The translations under genes were made by a program, and so were the position numbers. From Artemia franciscana (lineage: Eukaryota; Arthropoda; Branchiopoda; Anostraca; Artemiidae), in the NCBI RefSeq assembly GCF_032884065.1, contig NC_088863.1, forward strand, positions 62,379,512 through 62,443,511: a stretch of 64,000 nucleotides of DNA, in the 5' to 3' direction. Within the stretch, counting starts at the first letter, position 1. The number at the start of each line of letters is the position of its first letter. The notes below the pieces were generated by a model. That model did no database searches. It was not told the origin of the DNA and saw nothing but the letters and a program-made list of their open reading frames with translations. Positions 2,389-46,819 of the stretch are shown piece after piece.

Positions 2389-2419
<31 letters not shown>

Positions 2420-3931: not shown

Positions 3932-3936
3932 CTCAG

Positions 3937-4074: not shown

Positions 4075-4174
4075 GTAACATTCTTAAACTACATTTCTTT
4101 GTGCTTCTCTACTTTTCACTATACTCGCTAACAATTTATTCAACTTTATAGGATACATTTATAGAATGAAAGTC

Positions 4175-9098: not shown

Positions 9099-9790
9099 AT
9101 GTTTAAGTTTACAATGACTGACGAAGATGCTCAAAGAGTCTATGCCAAAAAACTTGCTGCTGATAGAGAAAGTCAGAAAAGAAAGCGTGCCGAGGAACTA
9201 CCAGAGCAACGCGAAAGTAGACTTGCTGCTAAAAGAGAAAGTAAAAAAGAAGGCGTGCCGAGGAATCAAAAGACCAGCAGGGAAACAGGCTTGAGGCTGA
9301 TAGAGAAAGAAAGAACAGAAAGCATGCCGAGGAACTACCAGAGCAACGCAGAAGCAGACTTGCTGCTAAAAGAGAAAGTGAAAAAAGAAGGCGTGCCGAG
9401 GAATCAAAAGACCAGCAGGGAAACAGGCTTGAGGCTGATAGAGAAAGAAAGAACAGAAAGCATGCCGAGGAACTACCAGAGCAACGCAGAAGCAGACTTG
9501 CTGCTAAAAGAGAATTTGAAAAAAGAAGGCGTGCCGAGGAATTACAAGAACAGCAAGAAATCAGGCTTGCTGCTGAAAGAGAAAGTAAGAAAAGAAAGCG
9601 CGCCGAGGAATCACAAGAACAGCAAGAAATCAGGCTTGCTGCTGATAGAGAAAGTAAGAAAAAAAGCGTGCCGAGGAATTACAAGAACAGCAAGAAATCA
9701 GGCTTGCTGCTGATAGAGAAAGTAAGAAAAGAAAGCGTGCCGAGGAATCAGAGCAATCTGAAAGTTATCGCCTGGCATTCAGGTACAACC
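9099..9790 (+). pseudogene. Helitron Lys/Arg-rich repeat region (N-terminal extension)
   Basis: The frame starts MTDEDAQRVYAKKLAADRES and then runs through about nine copies of a ~23-residue (69-bp) unit of the type RLAADRESKKRKRAEELQEQ. It is highly charged and probably a coiled coil or nucleic-acid-binding extension of the Helitron protein. One-base deletions near 9243 and 9662 throw parts out of frame (reading EGVPRNQKTS and SVPRNYKNS). After the second shift the frame runs on into the zinc finger of the Rep region. Function unknown. Confidence 0.7.
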
Positions 9791-9807
9791 CAGTCGATGA
9801 TTATAGC

Positions 9808-11058
9808 TTGAGTAGATGTGTTCAAATCGGGACAATGTCTAAAATTTGTCCCTATTGCAAGGCCTTGAAATTCAATGGTGAAACAATGGGAATGTGTTGC
9901 GCCTCAGGAAAAGTTAAACTTCCTCTATTGGCTGCACCACCAGAGCCATTGAAGACTTTCCTTACTGGAACTACGTCAGAATCTAAGCGTTTTTTGTCAA
10001 AAATCAGAAAATATAACTCATGTTTCCAAATGACGTCGTTTGGAGCCCAAATCGAAAATCCAGATCAATTTATGTCTACTTTCAAAGTAAAAGGGCAAAT
10101 TTATCATAGAGCAGGGTCCCTTCTACCATTCTCAGGCGAGAATCATAAATTTTCACAATTGTACTTCATCAGTGATAGAAATTCTGAATTGAATGCACGT
10201 TGCGAAATTTCTCCCAACGCTGAAAGGACTATCGTTTCCCAATTGCAACATCTTTTCAACGAAAATAATAATTTAGTGCGTCTGTTCAAAACAGCCATCG
10301 ATTTGATGCCTACTGATACGCATAAAATTGTTATTTCCGCTGACAAAACGCCTCCTGGCCAACATGTGCGTAGATACAATGCTCCAACTATCGACGAAGT
10401 GGCAATCGTTATGGTCGGTGATCAGTTTTTACCTCGATATATTATTCTTCATAAGCAAAACGCTCAGTTGTTAAGAATTGCTAAAACTCATCGATGCTAC
10501 GATGCCCTACAATATCCTATCATTTTTTGGGATGGAGCCGACGGCTATCACTTTAATATTAAATTGATGAATCCAGCCACTAACAAAGAAATGAATAAGA
10601 AATGCAGTGCAATGCATTATTATTCCTATAGACTAATGATTCGGCAGGATGAAGAAAATTATATTTTAAAATGCCGTGAATTGTTTCACCAATTCGTCGT
10701 TGATATGTATGCTAAAATTGAATCAGAACGTTTGCTATATATCCGCCTGAATCAGACCAAGCTCCGCTCTGAACAATACATTCATTTGCGAGATGCAGTT
10801 ATAAATGACGGTAATATCACAAACGTTTGAAGATTAACAATTTTACCTTCGTCATATGCTGGCAGTAACCGTCATATGCATGAATATGCTCAAGATGCTA
10901 TTGCGTATGTTCGTCTCTATGGTCGTCCAGATTTATTTGTTACATTTACATGTAATCAATCCTGGGACGAGATACTGCAGCTTTTACTTCAAGGACAATC
11001 GGCGGTTCATAGACATATATCGGCGATTTTACATCAGAAATTTATAACTACACTTTAG
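9808..11058 (+). pseudogene. Helitron Rep: zinc finger and Helitron-like N domain
   Basis: The open frame extends upstream of 9808 without a stop (FRYNPVDDYSL), so 9808 is not a real start. It has the N-terminal finger CPYCKALKFNGETMGMCC, the N domain with LQYPIIFWDGADGYHFNI, and the conserved YIHLRDAVINDGN block. A single in-frame TGA at 10828-10830 (RLTILP follows) interrupts it. It then reads HMHEYAQDAIAYVRLYGRPD and LFVTFTCNQSWDE before the frame is lost near 11040. The HUH catalytic segment that should follow is deleted. Confidence 0.88.
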
Positions 11059-11195
11059 TTGTTATAGAAGATTTGTGCGTACGTATGGCAAACAAACCTC
11101 TTCAGGATTTGGGAATGCCTTCACCTAACCGTATCGTTGCTGTTTCGACATGTGTAGAATTGGATCGTGAACAAAGTTAAAGTACGAGTGATCTA

Positions 11196-12611
11196 TTGTC
11201 GTATGTACAAAATAACATTTCCAAGTTAACGTCGGAACAAAAAGACATTTATGATACGATAATGCATTGTGTCGATAACAACGTTGGTGAAATTTTCTTT
11301 TTGGATGCGCCAGGAGGTACTGGTAAAACGTTTGTGATAAAACTGATTCTGGCATCAATTCGATCAAAAAATGATATAGCGTTGGCAATTGCGTCGTCCG
11401 GAATAGCCGCAACATTGCTGCCTGGTGGAAGAACTGCTCATTCCGCTTTGAAATTGCCTCTGAACTTGCATTCTACAGAAACTCCCACGTGCAATATTTC
11501 CAAATCATCTGGGATGGGTAAAGTATTGCAGCAATGCAAACTTATTATTTGGGATGACTTATTATTGATGAGTGCACCATGGCACACAAAAAATCGCTCG
11601 AGGCTCTGGATCAATGCTTGAAAGATTTGCGAGGGAAGTCGAAACCCTTTGGCAGCACATTAATATTGCTTGCGGGAGATTTCAGGCAAACATTACCTAT
11701 AATACCTAGATCAACTCCTGCAGACGAAATGAATGCTTGCCTGAAAAATTCTAATTTATGGGCACACGTAAAAACATTTAAATTAACTACAAATATGCGT
11801 GTCCGATTGCAAAACGATGACTCTGGTCAAACATCTTCAGATCAATTGCTGGCAATGGGAAACGGAAAACTCCCAGTAGACTCAATTTCAGGACGTATAC
11901 AACTACCTGCTGATTTCTGTAATTTAGTGACGTCCAAAAATGAATTGATTGAAAAAGTATTTCCGAATATTCTAAAAAATTATAAAAATAATAAATGGCT
12001 AAGTGAAAGAGCGATTCTCGCACCCAAAAATATAGACGTCCACGAAATCAACAATACTGTTTTGACCAAGATTCGAGACTAGGCAGTCCTTTACAAGTCA
12101 GTCGACACAGTTTTGGAACCAAATGAAGCGGTTAATTATCCATCTGAATTTTTAAATTCCGTGGATCTTTCAGGGTTTCCACCACACGTGCTACAACTAA
12201 AAATAGGCGTACCAATAATACTTTTAAGAAATATCAACCCACCAAAGCTTTGCAATGGCACGCGACTTGCCGTAAAAAAAAACAATGGAAAACCTAATAG
12301 AGGCCACAATCTTGACAGGGCCTTTTGAGGGTGAGGCTGTTCTTATTCCTCGCATTCCCATGATTCCAACGGATCTGCCTTTTCAATTTAAAAGATTGCA
12401 ATTCCCAATTCGATTAGCATTTGCAATCACCATTAACAAAGCTCAAGGTCAATCATTAGAAAAATGTGGTATAGATCTCAATACTGATTGTTTTTCCCAT
12501 GGACAATTGTACGTTGCATGTTCGAGGGTCGGTAAACCTGACAATTTATTTATATGCAGCGACAATTGGACAGCGAAGAATGTTGTATATTCGCAAGTTT
12601 TACGCAGTTAA
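11196..12611 (+). pseudogene. Helitron Pif1-type helicase, interrupted
   Basis: SF1B helicase that unwinds DNA during rolling-circle transposition. Visible motifs are Walker A DAPGGTGKTFV (about 11308), IASSGIAATLLPGGRTAHSA, LLAGDFRQTLPIIPRST (motif III), TTNMRV, IGVPIILLRNINPPKLCNGT, FAITINKAQGQSLEKCGIDL and HGQLYVACSRVGKPDNLFI. Breaks are a 13-bp partial duplication in the Walker B region near 11560 (the expected WDECTMAHKK is split), an in-frame TAG at 12080-12082 where the copy at 30300 has CAG, and one extra A in the A-run near 12275. Coding resumes each time, so decay is recent. Confidence 0.9.
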
Positions 12612-14966: not shown

Positions 14967-17178
14967 GGCAATGATTATTGTGCTGCCAAAGATAACTCCT
15001 AAAGGCTGTGTTGACAATTTCACACTCAGTTTTTATGAATTTAAACGAAAATGTAGTTCAGCTAAAAACAGTGGCACTATTAAACCAAAATAGGCTAATG
15101 GGGCCATCTATCGCATTAGCTGAAGCCCCATTTAAAGTTTCTTTTTGAAAGCCTTTAAAAGCAGGGAAGAGCTCATTTCCTCTGTTGCTTTCAATTGTCG
15201 CGGTTTAAAACAGCCTAAATTATGAATGAAAGCTGTATGTAAATAACCCTTACTCGACATACTGCGTTTTGCTGCAAATGCGTGTAGCGAAAAGGAGCAC
15301 TCATTTGTGTTGTGTTTCCGAAAATTCGAAGCGGAAAAGAACACTTTCCGAAAACACTCCAGGGCCGGATGACGGAATATAACGATGTGAACCTCATTTT
15401 GACAACTTCAAATCCGGTAGTTAAGATTTTGTTGCTTTTTTTTATTTTACATCTATTGACTATCAAATTATGTTGGTAACATTTTTGTTATTAAAACAAA
15501 AAAATGGGCTAATAAACGGTTTACACGTAAAAAAAATGCAGTCCAAGCCATGTTCTATGATACCTGCGGAACAGTGGTTAAGACATTATTCGAATGTCTT
15601 CGGGTCTAAGGATATTCCCTTGGAAAAGGAATATGGTGAATCGCTTAAATTGTGTATTGATTTACTGTTGAAAAGAGAAATTATTTTTCTTATAACTGCG
15701 AATGATGTTTTGGGGGCTGTTCGCCAGTTAAAGGTTAACAAGGCTCCAGTTCTTGATGGTGTCAGTGGTAATCATCTGCGCAATGGTTCACCGCTTTTGA
15801 TCCAGCATATGCAACTACTTTTTCAGATGTCTATAGATACTGCCACCGTCCCCAAATCGTTTTGTACCGGAGTTGTTACAAACATCCCGAAGAAATGAAA
15901 AACGCAAATGAGTTTGGAGGCTACAGGCCGAATACTGTTTCGAGTACATTCAACAAGGTGCTGGTAAATTGGTCCTTCGTGAATTTATATCGAAGCGTGT
16001 GATAGACTACAGGCAGTTTGGGTTTCGAAAGCATCTCAGCTGTGCCTTCGCCCATAGACTTTGAAAACACATTCTCGCCAAGGCTAATTCACTTGAGTTA
16101 TCCGTACATATATGTAGTGTTGACAATCCCGCTGTATTTGATGCAGTAATCCAGTCTGATGTGTTCCAGACCTTTCTAGATGCCGGTGTGAACGCCCATT
16201 GACTAGCTATATTATCATTGTGGCACTCTAATAATTATATAAGAGTGAAACGGGCTTGTAAAACTCAATGAGCCAGTTAAACTAAAGAGAAGACTTCGAC
16301 AAGGTTCTGTCTTAAGTCCGGTATTGTTTAACACGTTGACTTCTACGGTTACAAAACATATTTTTGCGGGCTAAGATTTGATACTTGTGTTTTGAGTTTA
16401 ATAAGCTATGTTGACGATTTACTTATGTTGAGCTTCTCATCAAGTGTACTGTAAGATAATTTAGATAATCTTGTATCTGGTTATAGTGCTGTTTGTCTAC
16501 AAGTTAATGGCCAAAAAACTGAATTTCTAGTTTAAGCTCTGCTGAACAAGAGGCACCAGCACCAACTGTATCCGTAGATGGTGCTATTATCGCACCGTCT
16601 TCTTCGATCAAATTAGTTAGGTCTTCCGTACGGCTGGGATAAGAAAACTAAAATAACTCTTTGCCTTGATACCATTGTGTCTTTCCTACGACTGGGCTAT
16701 GCTAAACTAGCCCCGCTGAAATATCCTTACAATCGGCAAATTTTGGCGAGGGTGTATAGAGCAGTGGCATTAACACATGTCCTTTACCTTTCCCCGCTTT
16801 AGGAATGGTTCACAGAAACAGAGAGACTAAAAGTTAGGTCCGCGTCTTGTAGATATTTGAAGTTTTCGATACGTATACCGCTATGCCCAGAGAAACTCAT
16901 CCCTTTTGAATAAGTATCAAATTTCAGATCCCCGTGAAACTGTGGCAGAACATGAAACTAGTGCTAGAAAAGGTGCCCTTGAGCACCTTTACAATTTCCT
17001 GCTGTTGTACGTTATATACGAGCTATGAATGTATATAGTGAATGTAATCTAATCGTTTAATCTTGAAGTATTATTTTTCACCTTTTTCTTTGTCCTTTTT
17101 ATTTTTTCTTTATACTCCGCCATGTTGTTGTTTTGATGGTGGGCTAATATTAAATATCTATCTATCTATCTATCTACA
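14967..17178 (+). mobile_element. LINE copy 2, with 3' tail, broken
   Basis: A 5'-truncated LINE that retains linker, RT and 3' UTR. It keeps motif A as SVDNPAVFDAVIQ (about 16118) and SYVDDLL (about 16406). After the coding part come an untranslated stretch and a (TATC)n tail at 17155-17177, the microsatellite-type 3' end known from several LINE clades. Frameshifts, for example after VVTNIPKK at 15895, make it dead. It is more diverged from the other three copies than they are from one another, so it is an independent insertion. Confidence 0.88.
15470..15898 (+). pseudogene. LINE reverse transcriptase, linker and N-terminal part
   Basis: The 142-codon frame has MIPAEQWLRHYSNVFGSKDI (linker), NDVLGAVRQLKVNKAPVLDG (RT motif 1) and FCTGVVTNIPKK. 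In the minus-strand copies the linker A-run is 26-29 long. Here it is 8, which keeps this frame open across it. The frame ends by a shift in AAGAAATGAAAA where other copies have AAGAAAGGAAAA. Confidence 0.85.
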
Positions 17179-18287
17179 ATAAATATCTTTGAAAAGACCT
17201 CAGAATTTAAGTAACTATGTATAACGAAACTAGACTCTTAAGGTCCAAACCGAAAGCGCTAAACTCCGTTTCTTTGCTCTCCGGCCAGGAACTGCGATTA
17301 AGAGTTGGGGGCCAGCCATCCTATGTTTTTTGCACAGACAAAAACGCACATGCATTTTATCTTGTTCTATAATACTTTTAAAAAGTTAAAACAGTTGGAA
17401 ATTTTACACAGTATTGAATAACCGTAATAAGTTTTGACGTCACTCATACAAATTTATTTTCAAAATCAAATATCTTGACGATTTTCATTTAAATTTACCA
17501 CTTATCTAGATATTTCTTTAGTTAGAAAATCAAAGAAGACCAAGTTTCCCAAAAAATATGGAGCGGTTACTGAGAAAAAAATATACATAATAATCTTTAT
17601 TTAAACAGATAGTATAATAATAGTAGTAATTAAAAAAAAAAAATTAAAATACATTAATTTGGTTCATAATACACTACCATTAAATTTGCAGTCTATTCAA
17701 AGATATTAATTATTGAAGAAATCTAATGAATAACTCCAATTTTTTGCTAAGCTTCAAAATTTCGGTTCTTTCTCTAACATCTTAGTTAAAATACATTCAG
17801 AGATTTTCGTCATTACCTGTTTTTTTCTCTTCACGCAACATTTCGCTGTTTTTTATTAAACCAATACAAATACTGAAGGAAAAGTTACTGAACAGCAAAA
17901 AGTTACTGAAGCCTAATAAGGATTTGAACCTGGGACCTTCATTCTACGGTGTGACAGCATCTCTCAGCGAGTGCCTGGCATATTCAGTTTGACATATCTG
18001 GCATATTCAGTTTGGTGTTTTAAATTCTATATTATGAACCAAATTAATGAGTTTTATACATTTTTTTAATCTTTATTATTACAATACTATCTGTTTAAAT
18101 AAAAATTATTATGTATATATTTTTTTCTCAGTAATAGCTCCATATTTTTCGGGAAACTTGGTTTTCTTTGATTTTCTAACTAAAGAAATATCTAGATAAG
18201 TGATAAATTTGAAAGAAAATCGTCAAGATATTTAATTTTGGAAAGAAATTCGTATGAGTGACGTCAAAACTTATTACGTTTATGCAA
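17178..18287 (+). repeat. Foldback unit with tRNA-like centre, first array member
   Basis: The left part (17178-17690) is the reverse complement of the array unit (GGTCCAAACC.., GACGTCACTCATAC.., CTCCATATTTTTCGG complement). From 17690 the sequence runs in direct orientation through a tRNA-like segment and the same arm to 18287. It is therefore an inverted-repeat element with arms of about 300-450 bp. Its right arm is interrupted by the Helitron at 18288 and resumes at 19720. Confidence 0.75.
17911..17979 (-). repeat. tRNA-like segment 1
   Basis: On the minus strand the T arm is intact (CCCAGGTTCAAATCCTTATT, loop TTCAAAT, B-box-like), while the A-box region GAGTGACT/CTCGCTGAGAGA is degenerate and the acceptor stem pairs poorly. 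It is a SINE-type or pseudo-tRNA remnant, not a working tRNA. Confidence 0.6.
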
Positions 18288-19719
18288 TCTATATATATAA
18301 AAATAAGTTGTCTGTGTGTGGATCTGTGGATCAGGTGACGTCATGTTTGTCCGCATATGACGTCTGAATTATTTCACACTAATACAAAAGAAGAAAAAAA
18401 CTAAAAAAGGTAAAAACTACAAAAACAAACTAAAAAGAAAAAAAAACTAAAAAAACTAAAAAACTAAAAACAACTAAAAAAAAGGTAAAAATCTAATAAC
18501 TAAAAAAAAACTGAAAAAAATAAAAAAAGGCAAAAACTACAAAAAAAAATAAAAACTAATAAAAAAAACTAAAAAAGCTAAAAAACTAAAAATACTAAAA
18601 AAAACTAAAAAAAGGTAAAAAACTAAAAAAAACTAAAAACTAAAAAAGAAAAAAACTAAAAAAAAGGAAAAAACTGAAAAATAAAAGAGAAAAAGAAAAC
18701 TAAAAAAATATGAATAAATATATATAAAAATAAGTTGTTTGTGGGTTATGTCTGTCTGTCTGTCTGTCGAGTGACGTCGTGTTTGTCTGCATATGACGTC
18801 TGAATTATTTCACACTAATACAAAAGAAGAAAAAAAACTAAAAAAGGTAAAAACTACAAAAAAAACTAAAAAGAAAAAAAACTAAAAAAGCTAAAAAACT
18901 AAAAAAAACTAAAAAAAGGTAAAAAACTAAAAACTAAAAAAAACTGAAAAAACTAAAAAAAGGCAAAAACTAAAAATACTAAAAAAACTAAAAAAAAGGT
19001 AAAAAACAAAAAAAAACTAAAAACTAAAAAAGAAAAAACTAAAAAAAAGGAAAAAACTGAAAAATAAGAGAAAAAGAAAACTAAAAAAATATTAATAAAT
19101 ATAAAAAATATAAATATAAATATAATATAAATTAGCAATCAACAAAGCACCGAGACACAAATGACGACCGGGACACAGGGAGTATAAATGACGACCAGGA
19201 CATAAGTAAAAAAAAAAAACTAAAAAAACTAAAAAAATGGTAAAAACTACAAAAAAACTAAAAACTAATAAAAAAACTAAAAAATCTAAAAATCTAAATA
19301 AACTAAAAAAGAAAAAAAAGAAAAAAGGAAAAAAATAAAGGAGAAAAACAAAACTAAAAAACGAATGTATATACAGACCGGGACACCGGGATACAAATGA
19401 CGACCGGGACACAGGGAATATAAATGACGACCGGGACACAGGGACACAACTACAATGGGGACGCCGGGGGGCACAGGGGGATATAAATGACGACCGGGAC
19501 ACCGGGACACAAGGAATATAAATGACGCCCGGGACGCTCAAAGAGAAATCACAGACTGGAACACCGGGACACAAATGACGACCGGGAGGGACACAACTAC
19601 AATGGCGCGTAACTAATATGGCGCGTAACGACTTACGCGCGCGGGGGGGCTTGGGGGGGCGCGAAGTGCCCCCACCAACTAGGTGTTGGGGTGGCGCGAA
19701 GCGCCACCCCAACAGCTAG
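18288..19719 (+). mobile_element. 1.43-kb non-autonomous Helitron with proven ends
   Basis: The insertion splits TATGCAA|TACTGT of the array unit. The same site is uninterrupted at about 20312, 20797, 24738 and 26013. The element starts TCTATATATATAAAAATAAG and ends hairpin-AACAG-CTAG (19716-19719), with no target duplication, exactly as Helitrons insert between A and T. Inside are two tandem 5' heads (18288-18715 and 18717-19090) each with CTAAAAAA tracts, then minisatellite (19150-19600) and the GC-rich 3' end. No protein is encoded. Confidence 0.92.
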
Positions 19720-21262
19720 TACTGTATAAAATTTACTAAGATAAAATATTGATTATTGGAGAAATCTAATGTATAACTCCAATTTTTTATTAAGCTTCAG
19801 AATTTCGGTTCTCTCTTTAAGGTTTTAGAATTGTTGCAATACCTTGTTAAAATATATACAAAGATTTTTGTAAATACCTGTTTTTTTTCTCTTTGCGCAA
19901 CATTTCGCTGGTTTTTATTAAACTAAAACAAATACCAACAAAAAGTTGCCGAAGCCTAACCAGGATTTGAACCTGGGACCTTCATTCTCCAGTCTGCCAG
20001 CCTCTCTCAGCGAGTGACTACTCCGTCATATTCAATTTGATGTTTTAAATGGTATATTATTAACCAAATTAATGTGTTTTACAAGTTTTTTTAATTATTA
20101 TTATTATTATACTTTCTGTTTAAATAAAGATTATTGTGTATATTTTTTCTCTGTAACAGCTCCATATTTTTCGGGAAACTTGGTTTTCTGTGGTTTTCAA
20201 ACTAAAGAAATATCTAGATAAGTGATAAATTTGAAAAAAAATCGTCAAGATTTTTAATTTTGGAAAGAAATTCGTACGAGTGACGTCAAAACTTATTACA
20301 TTTATGCAATGCTGTGTAAAATTTACAACTGTTTTAACTTTTTAAAAGAATTGTAGAACAAGATAAAATATATGTGCGTTTTCGTGTGTGCAAAAATATA
20401 GGATGACTGGCCCCAACTCTTGATCAAACTTCCTGCCTTGAGGGCCAAGAAACGGAGATTAGCACTTTTGGTTTGGACCTAAAGGATTTAGTTTACTCAG
20501 CGAGTGACTACGCCGGCATATTCAATTTGGTGTTTTAAATGGTTTATTATTAACCAAATTAATGTGTTTTATAATTTTTTTAATTATTATAATTATTGTA
20601 CTCTCTGTTTAAATAAAGATTATTGTGTATATTTTTTCTCAGTAATAGCTCCATATTTTTCGGGAAACTTGGTTTTCTGTTATTTTCTAACTAAAGAAAT
20701 ATCTAGATAAGTGATAAATTTGAAAAAAATCGTCAAGATTTATAATTTTGGAAAGAAATTCGTGTGAGTGACGTCAAAGCTTATTACGTTTATGCAATAC
20801 TGTGTAAAATCTACAACTCTTTTATCTTTTAAAAAAGAATTATAGAAACGGAGATAATTACCTGTTTTTTTTTCTATTTATGCAACATTTCGCTGGTTTT
20901 TATTAAACTAAAATAAATATCGTTTTGAGTGACGTCAAAACTTAATGCGTTTATGCAATGCTGTGTAAAATTTACAACTGTTTTAACTTTTTAAGAGAAT
21001 TGTAGAACAAGCTAAAATGTGTGTGCGTTTTCGTGTGTGCAAAAAAATAGGATGATCAAAACAATACGTTTATGCAAAACTGTGTAAAATTTACAACTCT
21101 TTTAACTTATGAAAAAGGATTATAGAAACGGAGATAATTACCTGTTTTTTTCTCTTTATGCAAAATTTCGCTGGTTTTCATTAAACTAAAATAAATACCA
21201 ACAAAAAGTTGCCGAAGCCTAACCAGGATTTGAACCTGGAACCTTCAGTCTCCAGTCTGACA
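19720..21262 (+). repeat. Array units, left block
   Basis: This continues the array after the Helitron. Units share TTCAATTTGGTGTTTTAAATG, AACAGCTCCATATTTTTCGG, TGACGTCAAAACTTATTAC and TTTATGCAAT.CTGTG. Starts occur near 20010, 20500 and 20870 with internal deletions. tRNA-like segments are at 19954-20027 and, cut by the transposon, at 21217-21262. Short ORFs such as the 68-codon frame at 20504 are repeat translations, not genes. Confidence 0.75.
19954..20027 (-). repeat. tRNA-like segment 2
   Basis: On the minus strand it carries the complete CCAGGTTCAAATCCTGG T arm, followed by TTAGGC at the 3' end. The 5' end is GACGGAG. The D and anticodon arms are not regular. Confidence 0.6.
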
Positions 21263-21384
21263 TACTCAGGGAGCCACTCAACGAAAATGTGTCGGGTAGG
21301 TGATCAGTGAGCAGCAGAAGGTTTGACAACCGAATACGGGGTAATCGATAGCGCTGATCACGAAAATGGGCGTTATATACTCGG
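21263..21384 (+). repeat. Left terminal inverted repeat of the TIR transposon
   Basis: The outer 15 bp TACTCAGGGAGCCAC pair with the right end except for one base. Two inner conserved blocks lie at about 21300-21328 and 21361-21384. Spacing between blocks differs slightly from the right end. Confidence 0.85.
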
Positions 21385-21824
21385 CCGGGGGGTGCTTGAC
21401 CCCGAAAATTGAAAATTTCGCGTTTTTTTTACTATTAAATCACCTTTCGGAAAAATTTCCACAATGATCGCCAAATCTTTCGTAACTGATGCCAGAAGTG
21501 ACGAGTACAGTAGGGACCATCGCGAATGACCTTGAAACTTGCAATTTTAATTTTTTTTATTCGCGCTGGAAAAGATTTCACGCCTAGATTCAGCTGGTAG
21601 TGGATAGTTTTATTATCTCAGACAGGAAGATTGCCACTATACTCAACAATGACCTTGATTACAACTCTCTTTCATTCCTAATCAGAATTATTAGTAAACT
21701 TGACAAGATTATTATTCAATAAGCTTGAATAAACAAAAAAAAGATTACTATACTAACACCTGCTACGGATTTCGTGAACAGCACTTGTTACTACAAAAGT
21801 TAAAAAGTAGCTCAGCATATCAAA

Positions 21825-23903
21825 TTATCCATCAAGCATATCAAACTCGTCCATAAAACACTTCCCACCACAGCCACAAAGTAAATCGCAAGGTCTATTT
21901 CCAGCACATGAACATTTTTTTGTACAGCGCTTGCACGAGCAGTACTGGGGGACCATACCTTCTGGAAATGCCTGAAGGGTAGACACAACTGGCCTAACCC
22001 CACCGTCTTGAAACATCCAGCCAAATTGCAGGGGATCCAAAAACTGTGGCTTTGCTCGATTTGCTTGCAAAAAAATGTCCAACTGTAGGTACACGCGCTT
22101 AGCATGACACTCAAAGGCAGCGTCAGATGGTGGCAAATACTTAAGCTCCCGCTTTCGAGGGTACAAATGCACTCTTAATTCATTAAGAGAGGTAAAGTGG
22201 TCTGGGTCTTTTCCGTATGAGGCAACAACGACCTTTTTGCAAATCACACTGAATTTTTCTAGAACCGCAGGGTCGAGCTTTGACTTCTGTATCTCTTGGA
22301 CAAGCAAAGCAATCGGTTTCTCCAATCCCCATTTCTCGACAGCCTTGGCCACCACTCGTTTTCCCTTAGAAAACATGAAACCCACGGTATCACACCCTGA
22401 AAGCGTATGAAGAAGGCAGATGGAGTGAACAAAATCGTTCGGTAAATTGCTGCAAAGCCGATGTATAGGCACTAAATAGCTGTGGAACCTGACATAAACT
22501 TTCCGATTTTCACAATTTGGGTGGTTCCCAAGGAATAACTTGTAGTGATATAGCAGGACGACAACTATGTCTGTGTCATTCGCATCGACCAAAACGACAT
22601 CGAAACCCCTCTCCAAACAGTCCAACATGTGTAACACAACTCTTGTATCGGCCTCTTCATGGGTACAGCTCAAACGCTCTTCAAAGTTTGTATCAGCATT
22701 TCCACTTCTGTTGAGCATCACCACTCTCATCCGGTCTCGAAAGCCTCCTGAGAGGTACACAGTGAACCCTGCTTGCAGCAGGTGAACTGAGTTTTCAAAC
22801 TCACCGAATAGAAGCTCAATCAGTCTTGCCTTTGTCTTGGAATTTGAGAGCAACGAGTTCCAGTCATCTAGGTTTGAGTGTCTACCTAGAGCTACCAGAG
22901 ACCTGTTTGAACATCCTCGCTGCTCATGGCAACCACCGCAGTCCTTTAGGCAGATCACCTTGCCTTCTTCGTCGGAATATCCAAAAATCCCATCATATCT
23001 ATCTGCAAGGACGTGCAGCTCCTTAACGTTGCTGTTGAAAGACACAAGCGTAGAAAATGTCCGTTTTCCATAGCTCTCAACGGTTTCCGATGGATTTGGT
23101 GGATGGCTTCTGAGGTAGGGCATCAAGTCTACCACCCTTGAGTGAGTCGACTCACTGCTAATCTCGAGGTTAACGGGCCACTCGCTCAAGCTGATTTTTG
23201 TTTTCAAATACTCCAGAAGAGCTGACTTTGTTCCTGTCGGAAGCACAACCATTCCAGATATGGCACTTCTCTAGAATATAGAAGGTGCATATGGAAGAAG
23301 CTCATGGGAAAGCAAATTCTTTAGATGGTGAAGTCCTCTTTCGCCTGTAAAGTCAACACTCACCAATACCCTTTTGACAGTTTGAAGTTCAACATTGGTA
23401 AGGCTATTGACAGCACTAGAAGTATTGGTTGCTTTTTTCTGTTTCGCCTTCTCATTATTCATGACCTTTACTTTGCTAAAGGCACCTTTTTCACCGTCCA
23501 AGTAGCGATCAACCGCTCTGCTTCCAACAGATCGCACACTGAGGAGACTGTCAGCTATCTCACTATCAACTGTCTCAAGCGTATAAATATTCAGCATATC
23601 TTCGTCAGTGGATCGAAAGGGATTGAGCCTGGCTTCCAGAACAGACTTCACTTTATCAACAGCCATGTGTTGCCGCAGAACGAAGGAAGGGTGATCTTTG
23701 TGGTGAGAGGAGTCAAACTCAGTCTGGGGAGCAATGCATAGCATCTCAGTGAATGTAGACGAGACTGAGGCACAGAATGGAAGAGTTAAAGTCCACTTCA
23801 CCAGTGCCAACTCATTCATGGTAATACCCGTCATTCTACCTTCCGTTTTTGAATCTAAATTAATGGTAGATTCTACAGCATGGTCTGGGGATATGCAGTT
23901 GGG
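21825..23903 (-). pseudogene. XPG/FEN-like nuclease with C-terminal Cys cluster (transposase candidate)
   Basis: About 690 codons on the minus strand, open except for one in-frame TAG at 23271-23273. The frame reads through PNCISPDHAVESTINLDSKT upstream of the first ATG (23834), so the N-terminus is cut by a stop/deletion near 23904. In the 475-codon C-terminal part, HEEADTR (residues 198-204), DANDTDIV (223-230) and SGCDTV (285-290) fall in the order and spacing of the FEN1/XPG acidic motifs (EAEA, DMD, GCDY). A Cys cluster of tesmin/CXC type (438-465: CSCKRCTKKCSC, then LCGCGGKC) closes the protein. I recall many uncharacterised animal proteins with HEEADTR and this Cys tail. They are usually ~1000 residues, so this copy is deleted. 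Catalysis and transposase role are inferred. Confidence 0.8.
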
Positions 23904-24293
23904 TCAATCCGCTTTTCTGTCAATAGTTCAAAAACGAGAAGAGTTAGAGAATTTCTGGATCAGTCATTTTGTAGGACAATAAATTTCCTACAGAAGCCAT
24001 TAAAAAAAAATACACCTCAGTCAGGCAAATTTTCAAGATGGATCAAGATTAATCCAAAAGAGAGATAAATTGTATTAACTTTTTCGTCGAAATTTTGTGA
24101 TTACAACTGAACGGCAAAAGATAAAAATGTTTTGAAAAGAGAATATGCTTCTTTATTTAATTACCTTCGATCTGAGGTATAGCTGAACAATTTTGGAGTA
24201 ACCTGTAATTTTTTATCGATTTTAATATAATTTTTGCCAGTTAAGATGGATATTTAGGGAATTTGAAGAAATGTGGATGTCGCACCCATTTGT

Positions 24294-24423
24294 CGACTAT
24301 ATAACGCCGATTTTCGTTTTCAGCATGGTCGATTGCATTAAATTGCACACTCAAACCTTCTGCTGCTTGCTGATCACCTCAATCCTTAAATATCAACATT
24401 TCTCTCGTGTGGCTCCCTGACTA
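24294..24423 (-). repeat. Right terminal inverted repeat of the TIR transposon
   Basis: The complement starts TAGTCAGGGAGCCACACGAG and includes GGTGATCAGCAAGCAGCAGA and the GGCGTTATATA block, matching the left end in order. ACA follows immediately at 24424-24426. Confidence 0.85.
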
Positions 24424-25171
24424 ACAGCCTCTCTCAGCGAGTGACTACTCCGGCATATTCAATTTGGTGTTTTAAATGGTATATTATTAACCAAATTAAT
24501 GTGTTTTACAAAATTTTCTTAATTATTATTATTATTATACTATCTGTTTAAATAAAGATTATTGTACATATTTTTTTTTCAGTAACAGCTCCATATTTTT
24601 CGGGAAACTTGGTTATCTGTGATTTTCTAACTAAATAAATATCTAGATAAGTGATAAATTTGAAAAAGAAATCGTCAAGATTTTTAATTTTGGAAAGAAA
24701 TTTGTATAAGTGACGTCAAAACTTATTACGTTTATGCAATACTGTGTAAAATTTACAACTGTTTTAACTTTTTAAAAAAATTGTAGAACAAGATAAAATG
24801 TGTTAGCGTTTTCGTGTGTGCAAAACATAGGATGACTGGGCCCCAACTCTTGATCACACTTCCTCACTGGAGGGCGAAAAAACGGAGACTACCACTTTTG
24901 GTTTGGACCTAAAGGATTTAGTTTCTTTAGTTTTACTTGCTAAAAATCTGCAGTCTTTTCAACGACATTGACTATTGAAGAAATTTAATGTATAACTCCA
25001 ATTTTTTATTAAGATTCAAAATTTCGATTCTCTCTTTAAGGTTTTAGAATTGTTGCAATACCTTGTTAAAATATATACAAATATTTTTGTAATTACCTGT
25101 TTTTTTCTCTTTGCACAACATTTCGCTGGTTTTTATTAAACTAAAACAAATACCAACAAAAAGTTGCCGAA

Positions 25172-25245
25172 GCCTAACCAGGATTTGAACCTGGGACCTT
25201 CATTCTCCAGTCTGCCAGCCTCTCTCAGCGAGTGACTACTCCGGC
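25172..25245 (-). repeat. tRNA-like segment 4
   Basis: The minus strand has an intact T arm (CCAGGTTCAAATCCTGG) and 5' end GCCGGAGTAGTCACTCGCTG. It lies between two array units. The interrupted segment 3 is split across 21217-21262 and 24424-24454. Confidence 0.6.
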
Positions 25246-26160
25246 ATATTTAATTTGGTGTTTTAAATGGTATATTATTAACCAAAATAATGTGTTTTAC
25301 AAGTTTTTTAATTATTATTATTATTATTATTATACTATCTGTTTAAATAAAGATTATTGTGTATATTATTTCTCTATAACAGCTCCATATTTTTCGGAAA
25401 ACTTGGTTTTCTGTGGTTTTCAAACTAAAGAAATATCTAGATAAGTGATAAATTTGAAAAAAAAATCCTCAAGATTTTTAATTTTGGAAAGAAATTCGTA
25501 TGAGTGAAGTCAAAACTTATTACGTTTATGCAATGCTGTGTAAAATTTACAACTTTTTTAACTTTTTAAAAGAATTGTAGAACAAGATAAAATATGTGTG
25601 CGTTTTCGTGTGTGCAAAAACATAGGATGACTGGCCCCAACTCTTGATCACACTTCCTGACTGGAGGGCCAAGAAACGGAGATTAGCACTTTTGGTTTGG
25701 ACCTAAAGGATTTAGTTCACTCAGCGAGTGACTACTCCGGCATATTCAGTTTGGTGTTTTAAATGGTATATTATTAACCAAATTAATGTGCTTTATAATT
25801 TTTTTGATTATCATTATTATTATACTTTCTGTTTAAATAAAGATTATTGTGTATATTTTTTCTCAGTAACAGCTCCATATTTTTCGGAAAACTTGGTTTT
25901 CTGTGATTTTCTAACTAAAGAAATATCTAGATAAGTGATAAATTTAAAAAAAATCGTCAAGATTTATAATTTTGGAAAGAAATTCGTATGAGTGACGTCA
26001 AAACTTATTACGTTTATGCAATACTGTGTAAAATTTACAACTCTTTTAAGTTTTTAAAATAATTTTAGAAACGGAGATAATTACCTGTTTTTTTTCTCTT
26101 TATGCAACATTTCGCTGGTTTTTATTAAACTAAAATAAATACCAACAAAAAGTGTCCGAA

Positions 26161-26234
26161 GCCTAACCAGGATTTGAACCTGGGACCTTCATTCTCCAGT
26201 CTGACAGCCTCTCTCAGCGAGTGACTACTCCGGC
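26161..26234 (-). repeat. tRNA-like segment 5
   Basis: Same structure as segment 4, with TGACAGCC in place of TGCCAGCC. The T arm is intact. Confidence 0.6.
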
Positions 26235-26950
26235 ATATTCAATTTGGTGTTTTAAATGGTATATTATTAACCAGATTAATGTGTTTTACAAATTTTCTTA
26301 ATTATTATTATTACTATACTATCTGTTTAAATAAAGATTATTGTGCATCTTTTTTCTCAGTTACAGCTCCATATTTTTTGGGAAACTTGGTTTTCTGTGA
26401 TTTTCTAACTAAAGAAATTTCTAGATAAGTGATAAATTTGAAAAAAAATCGTCAAGATTTTTAATTTTGGAAAGAAATTCGTATGAGTGACGTCAAAACT
26501 TGTTACGTTTATGCAATACTGTGTAAATTTTACAACTTTTTTAACTTTTTAAAAGAATTGTTGAGCAAGATAAAATGTGTTTGCGTTTTCTTGTGTGCAA
26601 AAACATAGAATGACTAGGCCCCAACTATTGATCACACTTCCTGACTGGAGGGCCAAGAAACGGAGACTAGCACTTTTGGTTTGGACCTAAAGGATTTAGT
26701 TTCGTTAGTTTTACTTGCTAAAAATCTGCAGTCTTTTCAACGATATTGACTATTGAAGAAATTTAATGTATAACTCCAACTTTTTACTAAGATTCAAAAT
26801 TTCGGTTCTCTGTTTAAGGTTTTAGAATTGTTGCAATACCTTGTTAAAATATATACACAGATTTTGTAATTACCTGTTTTTTTTTCTCTTTGCGCAACAT
26901 TTCCCTGGTTTTTATTAAACTAAAACAAATACCAACAAAAAGTTGCCGAA

Positions 26951-27024
26951 GCCCAACCAGGATTTCAACCTGGGACCTTCATTCTCCAGTCTGCCAGCCT
27001 CGTTCAGCAAATGACTACTCCGGC
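26951..27024 (-). repeat. tRNA-like segment 6
   Basis: Same structure, but the T-loop has a change (GGTTGAAATCC) and the A-box side reads TTTGCTGAACG, so it is the most decayed of the set. Confidence 0.55.
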
Positions 27025-27086
27025 ATGTTCAGTTTGGTGTTTTAAATGGTATATTATTAACCAAATTAATGTGTTTTATAAATTTT

Positions 27087-27860
27087 TTTAAAACACAAAA
27101 ATTTATTTCATCGTATACCAATTCAAAAACGAATGTATATACAGACCGGGACACCGGGACACAAATGACGACCTGGACACAGGGAATATAAATGACAACC
27201 GGGACACAGGGACACAACTACAACGGGGACGCCGGGGGGGGGGGGAAGGGGTATATATAAATGACGACGGGGACATATGGAATGTTTGATTAGCAATCAC
27301 CACCAACAAAGCTCAAGGGCAATCATTAGAATCATGAGGTATAACTAAAAAAAACTAAAACAAAAGGTAAAAACTAAAAACTAAAAAAAAGACCAATTCA
27401 AAAACGAATGTATATACAGACCGGGACACCGGGACACAGGGAATATAAATGACGACCGGGACACTCAAAGAGAAATTACAGACTGGGACATCGGGACACA
27501 AATGACGACCGGGACACAGGGAATATAAATGATGACCGGGACACAGGGACACAACTACAACGGTGACGCCGGGGGCACAGGGTTGATAAATAAATGACGA
27601 CCCGGACACAGGGAATGTTTGAAGAGAAATTACATGCCGGGACACCGGGACACAAATGACGACCGGGACATCTGGACACAGGGAATATAAATGATGACCG
27701 GGACACTCAAATAGAAATTATAGACTGGGACACCGGGACACAAATAACGACCGGGACACAGGGAATATAAATGACGACCGGGACACAGGGACACAACTAC
27801 AACGGGGACGCCGGAAGGGCACAGGGGGATATATAAATGACGACGGGGACACAGGGAATG
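27087..27860 (+). repeat. Helitron minisatellite block
   Basis: Units beginning GACGACCGGGACAC occur in at least three filler types: CAGGGAATATAAAT (27 bp unit), TCAAAGAGAAATTACAGAC (~53 bp) and CAGGGACACAACTACAACGG (~63 bp). At 27283-27345 a scrap of helicase tail (AATCACCACCAACAAAGCTC) joins an A-rich tract, and the minisatellite starts again. Reverse-frame CPGRHL and SRSSF reading frames are not genes. Confidence 0.8.
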
Positions 27861-28056
27861 TTCGATTAGCAAACACCATCAACAAAGCTCAAGGGCAATC
27901 ATTAGAATATTGAGGTATAGATCTGAATACGGATTGTTTTTCACATGGACAATTATATGTTGCATGTTCAAGAGTCAGTAAACCTGACAATCTATTTATA
28001 TGCAAAGACAATGGGACAGCGAAGAATGTTGTATATTCGCAAATTTTACGTAGTTA
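27861..28056 (+). pseudogene. Helitron helicase C-terminal remnant
   Basis: Reads NTINKAQGQSLEY, then GIDLNTDCFSHGQLYVACSR and [15 protein letters not shown] before a stop, equivalent to the last ~60 residues of the helicase. One TGA follows SLEY. The upstream part is replaced by minisatellite, as at 8727. Confidence 0.85.
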
Positions 28057-28057
28057 A

Positions 28058-28174
<117 letters not shown>

Positions 28175-28292
28175 ATATATATAAAAATAAGTTGTCTGTC
28201 TGTCTGTGGGTCTGTGGATCAGGTGACGTCATGTTTCGGCTGACGTCATGAAATTAGTTGCCGTCATTTTTGTTCAGACGATGCTTAGTATA

Positions 28293-28424
28293 TTGTAAAA
28301 CACATTAATTTGGTTAATAATATACCATTTAAAACACCAAAATGAACATGCTGGAGTAGTCACTCGGTGAGAGAGGGTGTCAGAACGGAGAATGAAGGTC
28401 CCAGGTTCAAATCCTGGTTAGGCT
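28293..28424 (+). repeat. Array-unit fragment with tRNA-like segment, inside Helitron
   Basis: 132 bp matching the complement of the 17-27 kb array (TGTAAAACACATTAATTTGG to CCTGGTTAGGCT), here on the plus strand. The tRNA-like part is 28350-28424 with intact T arm. It lies between a Helitron head and an A-rich tract, consistent with capture by, or insertion into, the Helitron. Confidence 0.75.
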
Positions 28425-28904
28425 AAAAAAGGTAAAAAACTAAAAACTAAAAAAAAAACTGAAAAAACTAAAAAAAGGCAAAAACTACAAAAAAACTAAA
28501 AACTAATAAAAAAATAAAAAAGCCGAAAAACTAAAAAAACTAAAGAAACTAAAAAAAGGAAAAAACTTAAAAAACTAAAAACTAAAAAAAACTAAAAAAA
28601 AGGAAAAATGAAAAATAGAAGAGAAAAAGAATACTAATAAAATTAAAAATAAAAATAAAAAAAAATAAAAAAGATAAAAAGCTAAAAAAAAGGTAAAAAC
28701 CAATAAAAACTAAAAAGAAAACAAGGTAAAAAACTAAAAAAAAATTCATCTAAAAAACTAAAAAAAAACTAAAAAACGTAAAAACTAAAAGAACTAAAAA
28801 AGTAAAAAAAAACTAAAAAAAGGAAAAAACTGAAAAATAAGCGGGATATAAAACAGGGGGATATAAATGACGACCGGGACACCGGGACATAAGGAATATA
28901 AATG
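28425..28904 (+). repeat. (CTAAAAAA)n tract and short minisatellite
   Basis: An A-rich tract with CTAAAAAA and GGTAAAAAC units, then GATATAAATGACGACCGGGA units from about 28858. No gene. Confidence 0.85.
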
Positions 28905-29791
28905 AATCAGAAAATACAACTCATGTTTCCAAATGACGTCGTTTGGAGCCCAAATTGAAAATCCAGATCAATTTATGTCTACTTTCAAAGTAAAAGGGCA
29001 AATTTATCATAGAGCAGGGTCTCTTCTACCATTCTCAGGCGAGAATCATAAATTTTTACAATTGTACTTCATCAGTGATAGAAATTCTGAATTGAATGCA
29101 CGTTGCGAAATTTCTCCCAACATTGAAAGGACAATCGTTTCCCAATTACAACATCTTTTCCACGAAAATAATAATTCAGTGCGTCTGTTCAAAACAGCCA
29201 TCGATTTGATGCCTACTTATACGCATAAAATTGTTATTTCCGCTGACAAAACGCCTCCTGGCCAACATGTGCGTAGATACAATGCTCCAACTATCGACGA
29301 AGTGGCCATCGTTATGGTCGGTGATCAGTTTTTACCTCGAGATATTATTCTCAGGGTTTCCACCACACGTGCTACAACTAAAAATAGGCCTACCAATAAT
29401 ACTTTTAAGAAATATAAACCCACCAAAGCTTTGCTATGGCACTCGACCTGCCGTAAAAAAAAACAATGGAAAACCTAATAGAGGCTACAATCTTGACAGG
29501 GCCTTTTGAGGGTGAGGCTGTTCTTATTCCTCGCATTCCCAAGATTCCAACGGATCTGCCTTTTCAATTTAAAAGATTGCAATTCCCAATTCGATTAGCA
29601 TTTGCAATCACCATTAACAAAGCTCAAGGTCAATCATTAGAAAAATGTGGTATAGATCTTAATACTGATTGTTTTTCCCATTGACAATTGTACGTTGCAT
29701 GTTCGAGGGTCGGTAAACCTGACAATCTATTTATATGCAGCGACAATTGGACAGCGAAGAATGTTGTATATTCGCAAGTTTTACGCAGTTA
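28905..29791 (+). pseudogene. Chimeric Helitron fragment: N domain joined to helicase tail
   Basis: 28933-29350 encodes MTSFGAQIENPDQFMSTFK to VMVGDQFLPRDIIL, the Helitron N domain. At about 29351 it jumps into GFPPHVLQLKIGLPIILLRN of the helicase in a different frame. The helicase tail runs on to 29684, where TGA replaces the GGA of HGQLYV. The ~2.7 kb between these points in the 8939-12963 element is deleted. Non-functional. Confidence 0.88.
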
Positions 29792-29989
29792 ATTTGTATT
29801 TTATCTATCTATCTATCTATCTATCTCTATAAAAACGAGTTGTATGTATGCATGTTTGTTTGTTTGTAAATGAGCGTTTGCATATGATGTCATTATTAGT
29901 ACATACGGCTTTGTATATGCAGAGACAATGGGAAAGCCAAGAATGTTGTATATTCGCAATTTTTACGTAGTTTAACTCCTGCAGACGAA

Positions 29990-30829
29990 ATGAATGCTTG
30001 CCTAAAAAATTCTAATTTATGGGCACACGTAAAAATATTAAAATTAACTACAAATATGCGTGTCCGATTGCAAAACGATGACTCTGGTCAAACAGTAGAC
30101 TCAATTTCAGGACGTATACAACTACCTGCTGATTTCTGTAATTTAGTGACGTCCAAAAATGAATTGATTGAAAAAGTATTTCCGAATATTCTAAAAAATT
30201 ATAAAAATAATAAATGGCTAAGTGAAAGAGCGATTTTCGCACCCAAAAATATAGACGTCCACGAAATCAACAATATTGTTTTGAACAAGATTCGAGACCA
30301 GGCAGTCCTTTACAAGTCAGTCGACACAGTTTTGGAACCAAATGAAGCGGTTAATTATCCATCTGAATTTTTAAATTCCATAGATCCTTCAGGGTTTCCA
30401 CCACACGTGCTACAACTAAAAATAGGTGTACCAATAATACTTTTAAGAAATATCAACCCACCAAAGCTTTGCAATGGCACGCGACTTGCCGTAAAAAAAA
30501 CAATGGAAAACATAATAGAGGCCACAATCTTGACAGGGCCTTATGAGGGTGAGGCTGTTCTTATTCCTCGCATTCCCATGATTCCAACGGATCTGCTTTT
30601 TCAATTTAAAAGATTACAATTCCCAATTCGATTAGTATTTGCAATCACCATTAACAAAGCTCAAGGTCAATCATTAGAAAAATGTGTTATAGATCTTAAT
30701 CCTGATTGTTTTTCCCATGGACAATTGTACGTTGCATGTTCGAGGGTCGGTAAACCTGACAATGTATTTATATGCAGCGACAATTGGACAGCGAAGAATG
30801 TTGTTTATTCGCAAGTTTTACGCAGTTAA
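29990..30829 (+). pseudogene. Helitron helicase C-terminal part, open frame
   Basis: 279 open codons from MNACLKNSNLWAHVKILKLT to NVVYSQVLRS. Compared with 11579-12611 it keeps CAG where that copy has TAG, and 8 rather than 9 As in the A-run, so it is unbroken over its length. A 45-bp in-frame deletion removes the SSDQLLAMGNGKLP segment. Walker A and B are absent, so it cannot hydrolyse ATP. It is a truncated but well-preserved fragment. Confidence 0.88.
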
Positions 30830-34447: not shown

Positions 34448-34654
34448 CATTTTTTTTTTTTTTTAGTTTTTTTTTTAGTTTTTTACCGTTTTTCTTTTTT
34501 CGAATAACTTTAATCTATTGTCAAAATATTTCGAAATATTTATGCAATTTCCAGTTTTTATATTCTAGTTTGTTTTCTTTTATATATATAGAAGATATAA
34601 TCTGGCGTAACGGACAGACAACTTATTTATATATATATATATATAGATTGCATA
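34448..34654 (-). mobile_element. Inverted Helitron head (copy of 7718-7880)
   Basis: Complement of the 7718-7880 segment, including TTTCGAAATATTTATGCAAT and the ATATAATCTGGCGTAACGG block, ending at GATTGCATAGTGTTGGAG. It joins a poly(T)/TTTTTAG tract to the MAT fragment. Confidence 0.8.
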
Positions 34655-36405
34655 GTGTTGGAGTTAATTTAGTTTAAGCAACACACAATCACTTGGGACA
34701 AGTTGATATGATAGGTGCGAGCAGATTGATATGGTTTATCAATGTGCACCAGCATATTGTTTACATTGATTCTATATTGCCCATTTTGATTATAGGGCAA
34801 ACGCACGAGAGGAAGACAGATCGAGACTAGACATAGATATAGTCATTTGAAAAACCATATGAGACTGCTAAAGCAAAGACGATGACATTGTGGGAGACAG
34901 CTATAATTTATGGAATCGATAAAATGACACTTTTTTGATTAATTAAAAAGAAAGGATAAATCAGATTGCAACTCACGATAGTTGTGCTAAGCCGGTGCAA
35001 ATATTTAGTGATAAACTGGAAGAACAGCTTAAAAGGCACGTGATATACTCATAAAAGATATATCATTGGCTGACTCTGTATAACATTAAATATAAAAAAA
35101 CAAGTCTTTTCAAATGAAAGTAAGAAGCAACATTAAAAAATAAAACGAACAGAAATTACTCCGTATATGAAAGGGGCTTTTCCTCCTCAATGCCCCGCTC
35201 TTTACGCTAATGTCTGACCCTTTCTCTTAACTCTGTATTTAAAGCAGTAAGAACCTTTAATTTAAAGAGTGGGGCGTTGAGGAGGAAAAGCCCCTTTCAT
35301 ATACGGAGTAATTTTTGTTCGTTTTAAGTTTTAATGTTGCTCCTTACTTTCATTTAAAAAAATTTGTTTTTTTTATTTAATTTCTGGGCGTTTTTGAATT
35401 AATGCATGTTTTGATCTTGGCTCTTTACACATAAATAATTAAAACAAAACTTGCACATTAATTAATAGCAATTAATCGGAATATTTTGAGAAAAAAGAAG
35501 CGAGGGAGGAGGCCTAGTTGCTCTCCAAGTTTTTGGCTACTTAAAAAAGCAACTAGAACTTTTAATTTTTTACAAACGGTTTCAGTGGTAAAAAATATAC
35601 GTAACTTACGAATTAACTTACGTAACGAACTTCTATATTCGTATGTTTTTATTGCGTATATGAAGGGGTTCAACCCTCGTCGATACCTCGCTCTTTACAC
35701 TAAAACTTAGATTTTGTCCCAATTCCTTAAGAATGACCTCTGATTTACAAAGGCCGTAGAATAAATAGTTGAAATTAATAAACTACCTTAGCGTAAAGAG
35801 TGAGGTATAACGAGGAGGTAAACCCCTAATATGCGTAATAATTTTTGTTTGTTTTAATTTTTAATGCTGCTCCTTACTTTCAGTAGAAAAAACTTTTCAT
35901 ATTTATTTTTTCATTGTTTTTTCAAATAATGCTAGAAAATCCTGTGCCCCCTTAATTGAAATTATCTTCCCCCATGGGAAGTTTCTCCTTGGAAATATAC
36001 TCCCACGTACCCCCCCCCCCCCCCCTAACTCAACCCCTAAACAAAAAAAAACCTGAAAACGTCTCTACACTTCCTAGTAACCATTACTATATGTAAAAAC
36101 AGGTCAAAGTCAGTAACTTGCAGCCCCTCCCACGGGGACTGCGGGGGAGTAAGTCGTCCCTAAAGACATAGTTATTAGGTTTTTCGATTATGGTGAATAA
36201 AATGGCTATCTCAGAATTTTGATCCGCTGACTTTTGGGGAAAATGAGCGTGGGAGGGGGCCTAGGTGCCCTCCAATTATTTTGGTCACTCAAAAAGGGCA
36301 CTAGAACTTTTAATTTCCGTTATAATGAGCCCTTTTGCGACATTCTAGGACTACTCAGTCGATACGATAACAACTGAAAAAAAAAAAAAATAAAATAAAC
36401 ACGCA
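34655..36405 (-). repeat. Inverted copy of 5990-7717 (segment plus R2)
   Basis: 34655-35080 is the complement of 7280-7717. 35081-36405 is R copy 2 in minus orientation, with its terminal palindrome at 35110-35360 and 5'-truncated so that the R hairpin start is missing. At 36405 it jumps into the complement of ~4108, so ~1.9 kb holding the Polinton fossil is absent here. A (C)n run at 36010-36025 is longer than its partner. Confidence 0.85.
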
Positions 36406-36435
36406 TCACAAAGAAATGTAGTTTAAGAATGTTCC

Positions 36436-36573
36436 TTTGAGCAAGCTGGATTTCGTGACTATGCTGAAAAGTTGGGTGCTTCAATCGTGGAAGCAGAAGG
36501 TAAAAATACAAATATGATAACTGATAAATTACAAGAAAGTGACAAAAATTTAAGAAGACGATTACAACGATAA
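36436..36573 (+). pseudogene. Unidentified coding scrap, inverted copy
   Basis: Same 46-codon frame as 3937-4074, from FEQAGFRDYAEKLG to LRRRLQR and a stop. It is unchanged in sequence by eye, so both copies share a recent origin. Not identified. Confidence 0.35.
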
Positions 36574-37267: not shown

Positions 37268-37439
37268 ATGAAGTTTCTCCCTTTCTTTTCCTTCTTCTAT
37301 AAACGCTGCTAGTAGTTATTGTTTTAATAGTGCCATCTATTTATACTCTGTTCCTTTTTTAAGACTTTGAGTGTGGTAAAAGGTCACATCGAGTTTACAT
37401 TCCCTCTGCCAACCTCTCGGTAAAGCCTGCAAATACCAA

Positions 37440-46755: not shown

Positions 46756-46757
46756 AT

Positions 46758-46812: not shown

Positions 46813-46819
<7 letters not shown>

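Follow-up and report, generated by a model that had tools for sequence, protein, structure and literature searches.

A shortened copy of a recently active, probably AcademX-like DNA transposon in the genome of Artemia franciscana

The window analysed here is a stretch of 64,000 nucleotides of the Artemia franciscana genome (contig NC_088863.1, positions 62,379,512 to 62,443,511), in which an element at positions 21263-24423 is bounded by imperfect inverted ends of ~130-150 bp. The inverted-repeat regions, delimited by block pairing and alignment and given on the plus strand, are located at 21263..21395, on the side of the gene 3' end, and at 24282..24423, on the side of the gene 5' end. Three blocks of the left region pair with the right region, at 21263-21290/24396-24423 (28 bp, 79% complementary), 21298-21326/24351-24379 (29 bp, 93% complementary) and 21343-21395/24282-24334 (53 bp, 75% complementary). 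The two 150-bp ends gave a gapped-alignment score of 49, with none of 2000 single-base shuffles exceeding 13, confirming the terminal inverted repeats and the two further matching inner blocks proposed in a previous reading made from the letters alone (the sequence-only reading). The element termini are TAGTCAGGG. As also proposed there, the trinucleotide ACA is present on both sides as a target-site duplication, its left copy at 21260..21262 being read directly from the sequence and its right copy at 24424..24426 being placed by comparison of the flanks.

The sequence flanking the element is certainly a repeat. The flanks joined without the element match two uninterrupted forms of this repeat at 96.7% over 120 bp, one at 25158..25277 (plus strand) and a second at 26147-26266, and the empty-site string GTCTGACAGCC occurs once within the window, at 26199. 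The empty form reported from the same array was thus recovered, but its description as tRNA-like was not: ARAGORN predicted 0 tRNAs in the window, and the Rfam search of positions 17000-29000 gave no tRNA at E<=1, its sole row being a sub-threshold match to another family. A tRNA-like target was therefore not supported, and the target is referred to as a repeat.

A single minus-strand gene had been described as filling the element. Such a gene is indeed present, but only as a remnant. Its C-terminal part, read from the translation and from the family copies, spans 21825..23270 and comprises 481 codons with XPG/PIN-like motifs and a Cys-rich tail. It is separated by an in-frame TAG at 23271..23273 (minus strand), translated as Q in copies L009, L011, L012, L016, L018, L024 and L028, from an upstream remnant of exon 2 of about 209 codons at 23274..23903 (minus strand), which was identified by translation and by tblastn against the L016 protein. 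The window copy matches the latter protein at 96.7% over 691 residues. An internal deletion junction is located at 23899..23901, where L016 gene-strand position 525 joins position 2082 with a 3-bp overlap; relative to L016 (4719 bp), the start of exon 2 is missing together with the sequence that precedes it. The window copy thus lacks exon 1, retains exon 2 only in part and carries a stop, and what had been taken for a one-gene element with inverted ends is not a whole one but a deletion derivative of an element of about 8.75 kb. It comes from a genuine cut-and-paste DNA transposon, active in recent times and now multiplied in the genome, but is itself shortened and broken.

The element was searched against the window's own assembly, and at least 98 matching pieces were found with 40 of the 379 first-look candidates scored. 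The copy sample consists of the 40 longest matches, i.e. the window copy (L001) and 39 others, one sampled copy carrying two labels (L021 and L048); it is biased, as the matches were ranked by likeness to the window copy, which retains the C-terminal half of the gene. Both ends were seen in 35 of the 40 copies and one end only in the other five (L022, L027, L028, L042 and L047). An exact 3-bp duplication flanks 33 of the 35 both-ended copies, the exceptions being L014 (TTG/ATG) and L046 (AAC/ACA), and a 4-bp duplication was found at none of the 35. A occupies the third position of the duplication in 22 of the 33 cases. The pattern of the gene-5' terminus (27 bases, <=2 mismatches) occurs at 94 genome sites, compared to 0 for the reversed control, and the 141-bp gene-5' end was found at 99-100% in all 40 scored of 239 first-look candidates. 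Two of the checks that the sequence-only reading had suggested, a genome search for shared ends and a comparison of flanking bases, therefore came out in its favour, and in this genome the protein belongs to a family of copies with common ends and 3-bp duplications and not to a single-copy host gene.

None of the 35 both-ended copies reaches 8.75 kb. Two longer copies, each showing one end only, measure 8745 bp (C13:37636680-37645424, L028) and 8746 bp (C17, L027) from their end coordinates. Exon 2 is uninterrupted to its normal end in two of the five one-end loci, L028 and L022 (the far end of L022 was not found), and contains one stop in L027. A further 600 bp at C13 revealed another exon upstream, 208 codons or more in length, which ends in AFDNLDFQ at a CAG/GTAAAT donor (L028+L167). 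An acceptor, TTTTATTTCAG/GAAGAG, is found 1,104 bp past the donor and joins the two exons in frame; it is also intact in L027 and L022, and L016 has CGG where L028, L027 and L022 have the acceptor CAG. These signals suggest that the gene is spliced, with a reading of 208 + 1,102 = 1,310 codons on the minus strand in the window orientation, and we propose a parent element of about 8.75 kb whose spliced product would be a protein of 1,310 residues or more. The reading of the 8745-bp copy at C13 stops 3,144 bp short of its gene-5' end; of this stretch the first ~1.09 kb can be guessed from other copies (L010) and ~2.05 kb is in no copy seen, so that this side may hold further genes.

The 35 both-ended copies fall into 14 junction classes. 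Four of these have several members, inserted at different sites, namely the 4.72-kb class (14 copies), 531/881 (6), x/920 (3) and x/1299 (2). The ten other classes are represented by single copies. As members of a shared class are found at different sites, the deleted forms must have transposed after the deletion. The 14 copies of the 4.72-kb class measure 4712-4725 bp, all 14 carry the TTA-to-TAA change, and they show 0 to 17 differences from L016, itself a member, over 2139 bases of the C-terminal half. This class represents a very recent burst of copies that are unable to make the full protein. Outside the 4.72-kb class, base 577 is followed in 12 of the 21 copies by a common stretch beginning CAGGGTTCACCCGG, in which one of the 12 shows a base change; this stretch is missing from the class of L016 and present in L042.

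Several junctions contain filler sequence. In L048 the filler is long and matches internal sequence of L027 and L028 at 96%, and short neighbouring stretches repeated as filler were recognized by eye at the junctions of L011/L031/L036, L018/L035, L024, L025 and L032. In other DNA transposons, such filler is left when gap repair following cut-and-paste excision is interrupted, and by analogy the templated filler found here may have arisen from aborted gap repair. The polymorphism of the sampled copies gave no sign of purifying selection in either half of the gene. In the C-terminal half, singletons amount to 173 N to 65 S and shared variants to 60 to 11, for a neutral ratio of 2.53; in the N-terminal half, the corresponding values are 231 N to 81 S and 116 to 44, for a neutral ratio of 2.58. 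This neutral-like pattern is as expected of dead copies moved by the protein of another copy, and it gives no support for function.

The N-terminal half of the protein resembles the Pfam family DUF6589 (PF20231) over one collinear stretch of ~285-325 residues, with E-values of 9.3e-4 and 8.8e-5, of 8.3e-5 for the spliced N-terminal half and of 6e-5 for the natural uninterrupted frame of L028 (query without the last 51 codons). The likeness is sub-threshold, the best score being 22.4 bits compared to the Pfam curated cut-off of 27, and the function of the family is unassigned. Exon 1 alone (200 codons, L167) gave no Pfam match, and the whole-genome search with the DUF6589 model gave nothing at E<=0.001, nor did its 14 controls. 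The name DUF6589 was not found in the literature searched, where PF20231 appeared only in an unrelated optics paper. The DUF6589-like region may represent an RNase H-like DDD/E transposase core, for which AFDNLDFQ (FDNLD) and VVTCDQA (TCDQA), both picked by eye, contain candidate core acids. The other Pfam rows (MC5, E 0.19; FRB_dom, E 0.016 to 0.15) look like chance matches.

In the C-terminal half, four acidic motifs are read on the minus strand, and three relatives elsewhere in the genome (L049, L050 and L051) were compared to them. RYDG (22989..23000) is retained as RYD in two of the three relatives, HEEADTR (22641..22661) in all three, NDTD (22569..22580) as DTD in all three, and GCDT (22386..22397) corresponds in them to GCDT, SCDT or GCNT. 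The Cys-rich tail (21858..21941, minus strand; CSCKRCTKKCSCAGNRPCDLLCGCGGKC) contains nine Cys in 28 residues by translation and is predicted to bind zinc. NCBIfam and PHROGs matched with 0 families, the PDB searched by sequence gave nothing relevant (best match VAMP2, E 0.044), no Academ protein came up in these three or in Pfam, the viral contigs scanned by protein and by pattern contained no relative, plasmids and phages searched by tblastn gave no match, and the string HEEADTR was not found in the literature searched. The AlphaFold models of the two halves were unusable (mean pLDDT 38.0 and 38.2), and Foldseek with the second of them (pLDDT ~38) returned no match at E<=0.001.

The sequence-only reading had called the element nuclease-bearing and had likened it to Academ-type transposons, which carry an XPG-type nuclease. 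In one archaeal FEN1 (Thermococcus), the order of motifs is EGEA, DYD and GTDYN with a basic GIG helix, and HEEAD, DTD and GCDT with the Lys/Arg-rich stretch that follows can be aligned with it by eye. On this reading the element would share with archaeal FEN1/XPG the order E-x-E-A / E-E-A-D, D-x-D, G-[CT]-D and the basic helix, but it has no significant profile similarity to it. With 101 archaeal FEN1 proteins, hhalign scored the element at 17.4, where 100 column shuffles reached up to 27.4, and at 12.5 with the relatives stitched in, compared to a maximum of 22.7 in 100 shuffles. Under the FEN1 core model in hmmsearch, 788 of 1449 scored shuffles were equal to or better than the element core, and 542 of 1436 were as good as L049; the N-terminal half, included as a control, took a better rank (30 of 872), and the C-terminal half was unscored. 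As the profiles built for the element are thin (Neff 1.3 and 1.8), these tests neither show nor exclude an XPG fold, and because they are negative, the term "XPG nuclease" is used here as a reading of motifs.

AcademX transposons carry a Cys-rich zinc finger, and to our knowledge no role has been assigned to the nuclease domain of the Academ superfamily. The available passages of PMC10045372 state that AcademX makes duplications of 3 or 4 bp and AcademH of 9 or 10 bp, and that this contrast seems linked to the nuclease of the one and the helicase of the other. Curated bivalve Academ elements have a mean length of 5565 bp according to the part available of PMC10294476, and Academ is listed in that of PMC6327564 among the superfamilies found in every species of one arthropod survey. 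The present family resembles AcademX in the 3-bp duplication, the inverted ends, the nuclease-like acidic motifs, a Cys-rich segment and a long element; it differs in that two copies measure ~8.75 kb by coordinates and in that the relation to XPG is unconfirmed by profile. AcademH belongs to the same superfamily by name, but its duplications of 9 or 10 bp, as the same passages of PMC10045372 give them, set it apart from an element with 3-bp duplications. AcademH also has a helicase, and none was matched here in the scanned parts of the gene, which lie outside the unread gene-5' stretch of 3,144 bp.

The window copy is thus, with good probability, non-autonomous and derived by deletion from a young family of cut-and-paste DNA transposons that is best filed as AcademX-like. 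This filing was made by description, on duplication, ends, motifs and tail; it is probable, not proven, and "probable AcademX-like" is the term we use. The Academ-like assignment of the sequence-only reading is therefore kept for the duplications, the XPG-like motif order and the Cys-rich tail, but draws nothing from the FEN1/XPG profiles. The element most resembles the known Academ group and is thus a good further example of a known sort of element, not a new one. A transposon with inverted ends from outside Academ, in which a DDD/E-type core and a PIN-like nuclease had been joined independently, is an unlikely origin: it would agree with the failure of the FEN1 profiles to match and with protein libraries that give only the sub-threshold DUF6589 and chance matches, and the likeness to Academ is one of description and not of sequence comparison, but the 3-bp duplication and nuclease-like motifs (as in the available passages of PMC10045372), together with the Cys tail, make up the AcademX combination.

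Another superfamily with duplications of 2-3 bp, such as PIF/Harbinger or EnSpm/CACTA, would be allowed by the length of the duplication alone and is very improbable. Harbinger duplicates TWA (TAA/TTA), but only 6 of the 33 duplications are TAA or TTA; EnSpm/CACTA termini are CACTR and not those found here; and no Pfam transposase of either superfamily was among the matches listed. Kolobok, whose target duplication is TTAA, was rejected in the same way, no 4-bp duplication having been found. A host gene, of which the repeat would be a processed or segmental duplicate, can practically be dismissed, since the abundance of proteins with such motifs in animals, put forward in the sequence-only reading, is outweighed, for this family in this genome, by the precise shared ends, the 3-bp duplications, the empty site and the number of copies.

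Under the AcademX-like reading, intact copies would supply a spliced protein consisting of the DUF6589-like core, the XPG/PIN-like region (RYDG, HEEADTR, NDTD, GCDT) and the Cys-rich tail, in this order. The transposase would bind the ~130-bp inverted ends and excise the element, and strand transfer with a 3-bp stagger would give rise to the 3-bp duplication. The nuclease-like domain might trim flaps or the non-transferred strand, and the Cys tail might bind zinc and DNA/nucleic acid or chromatin. Excision gaps would sometimes be filled incompletely, yielding internally deleted copies with templated filler, which could then move with protein from intact copies. The deletion series with its filler would thus be natural evidence of excision and gap repair, and this young multi-copy family offers ends and duplications that can be read, as well as copies whose exon-2 frames are uninterrupted.

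The set of motifs HEEADTR - DTD - GCDT with a Cys tail is here tied to a transposon gene, which should aid annotation. A more far-reaching reading, that the HEEADTR/Cys-tail proteins constitute a separate lineage of transposases, with an RNase H-like core fused to a PIN-like nuclease too remote from FEN1/XPG to be called XPG, seems doubtful; if true, many "uncharacterized" animal proteins with these motifs would be transposases and not host genes. The proposal that HEEADTR proteins belong to such elements was followed within this genome only, where 48 sites code for HEEADT[R/S] with an Ala codon that differs from the GCC of the family, compared to 0 for the reversed-pattern control. It stands for at least five of the 48 sites, which are located 2.0-3.3 kb from the gene-5' end of this family and are its own diverged copies. 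The three other sites that were read are L049, L050 and L051, for which no ends or duplications were seen; all three are relatives that retain most of the motifs, and all are degraded or partial. Their tblastn E-values are 8e-9, 1e-29 and 9e-19, respectively, in a database made of these three loci and without composition correction, and the weakest relative reaches 2e-8 with the correction.

The segments that fill two internally deleted genomic copies of the element's family, at positions 561-1095 of L010 and 546-1445 of L048 (element coordinates, gene strand), are stretches of the parent's interior. The L048 filler is ~96% identical to L027 and L028, two copies that span ~8.75 kb by their end coordinates, and the initial 230 bases of the L010 filler are 98% identical to L042, a copy showing one end only.

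The HEEADT[R/S] motif of the element's protein, searched with an Ala codon other than the family's GCC, was found at 48 places in the genome in about twenty codon variants, some of them multi-copy, which suggests several related transposon families beyond the element's own.

The element is inserted in a copy of its target repeat near a tandem array (25090-26573), whose 490-bp unit contains this repeat.

Helitron-like remnants lie at 9658-12082 (Pfam Helitron_like_N, E 8.7e-11, and PIF1, E 6.7e-27) and at 29900-30829 (Pif1_2B and a weak PIF1 match), and a remnant of a retroviral-type integrase core at 4175-4831 (Pfam rve, E 3.5e-4, under the cut-off). The window also holds large, near-identical inverted duplications: 1937-4103 (99.8% identity, 2167 bp aligned) and 5961-7907 (99.5% identity, 1955 bp aligned) both pair with 34454-38572. 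They contain an intronless S-adenosylmethionine synthetase fragment, detected by Pfam in the first copy (3243-3923, minus strand) and present with identical translation at 36587-37267 (plus strand). A direct segmental duplication of 6.47 kb, at 98.0% identity, links 44064-50481 and 56430-62884.
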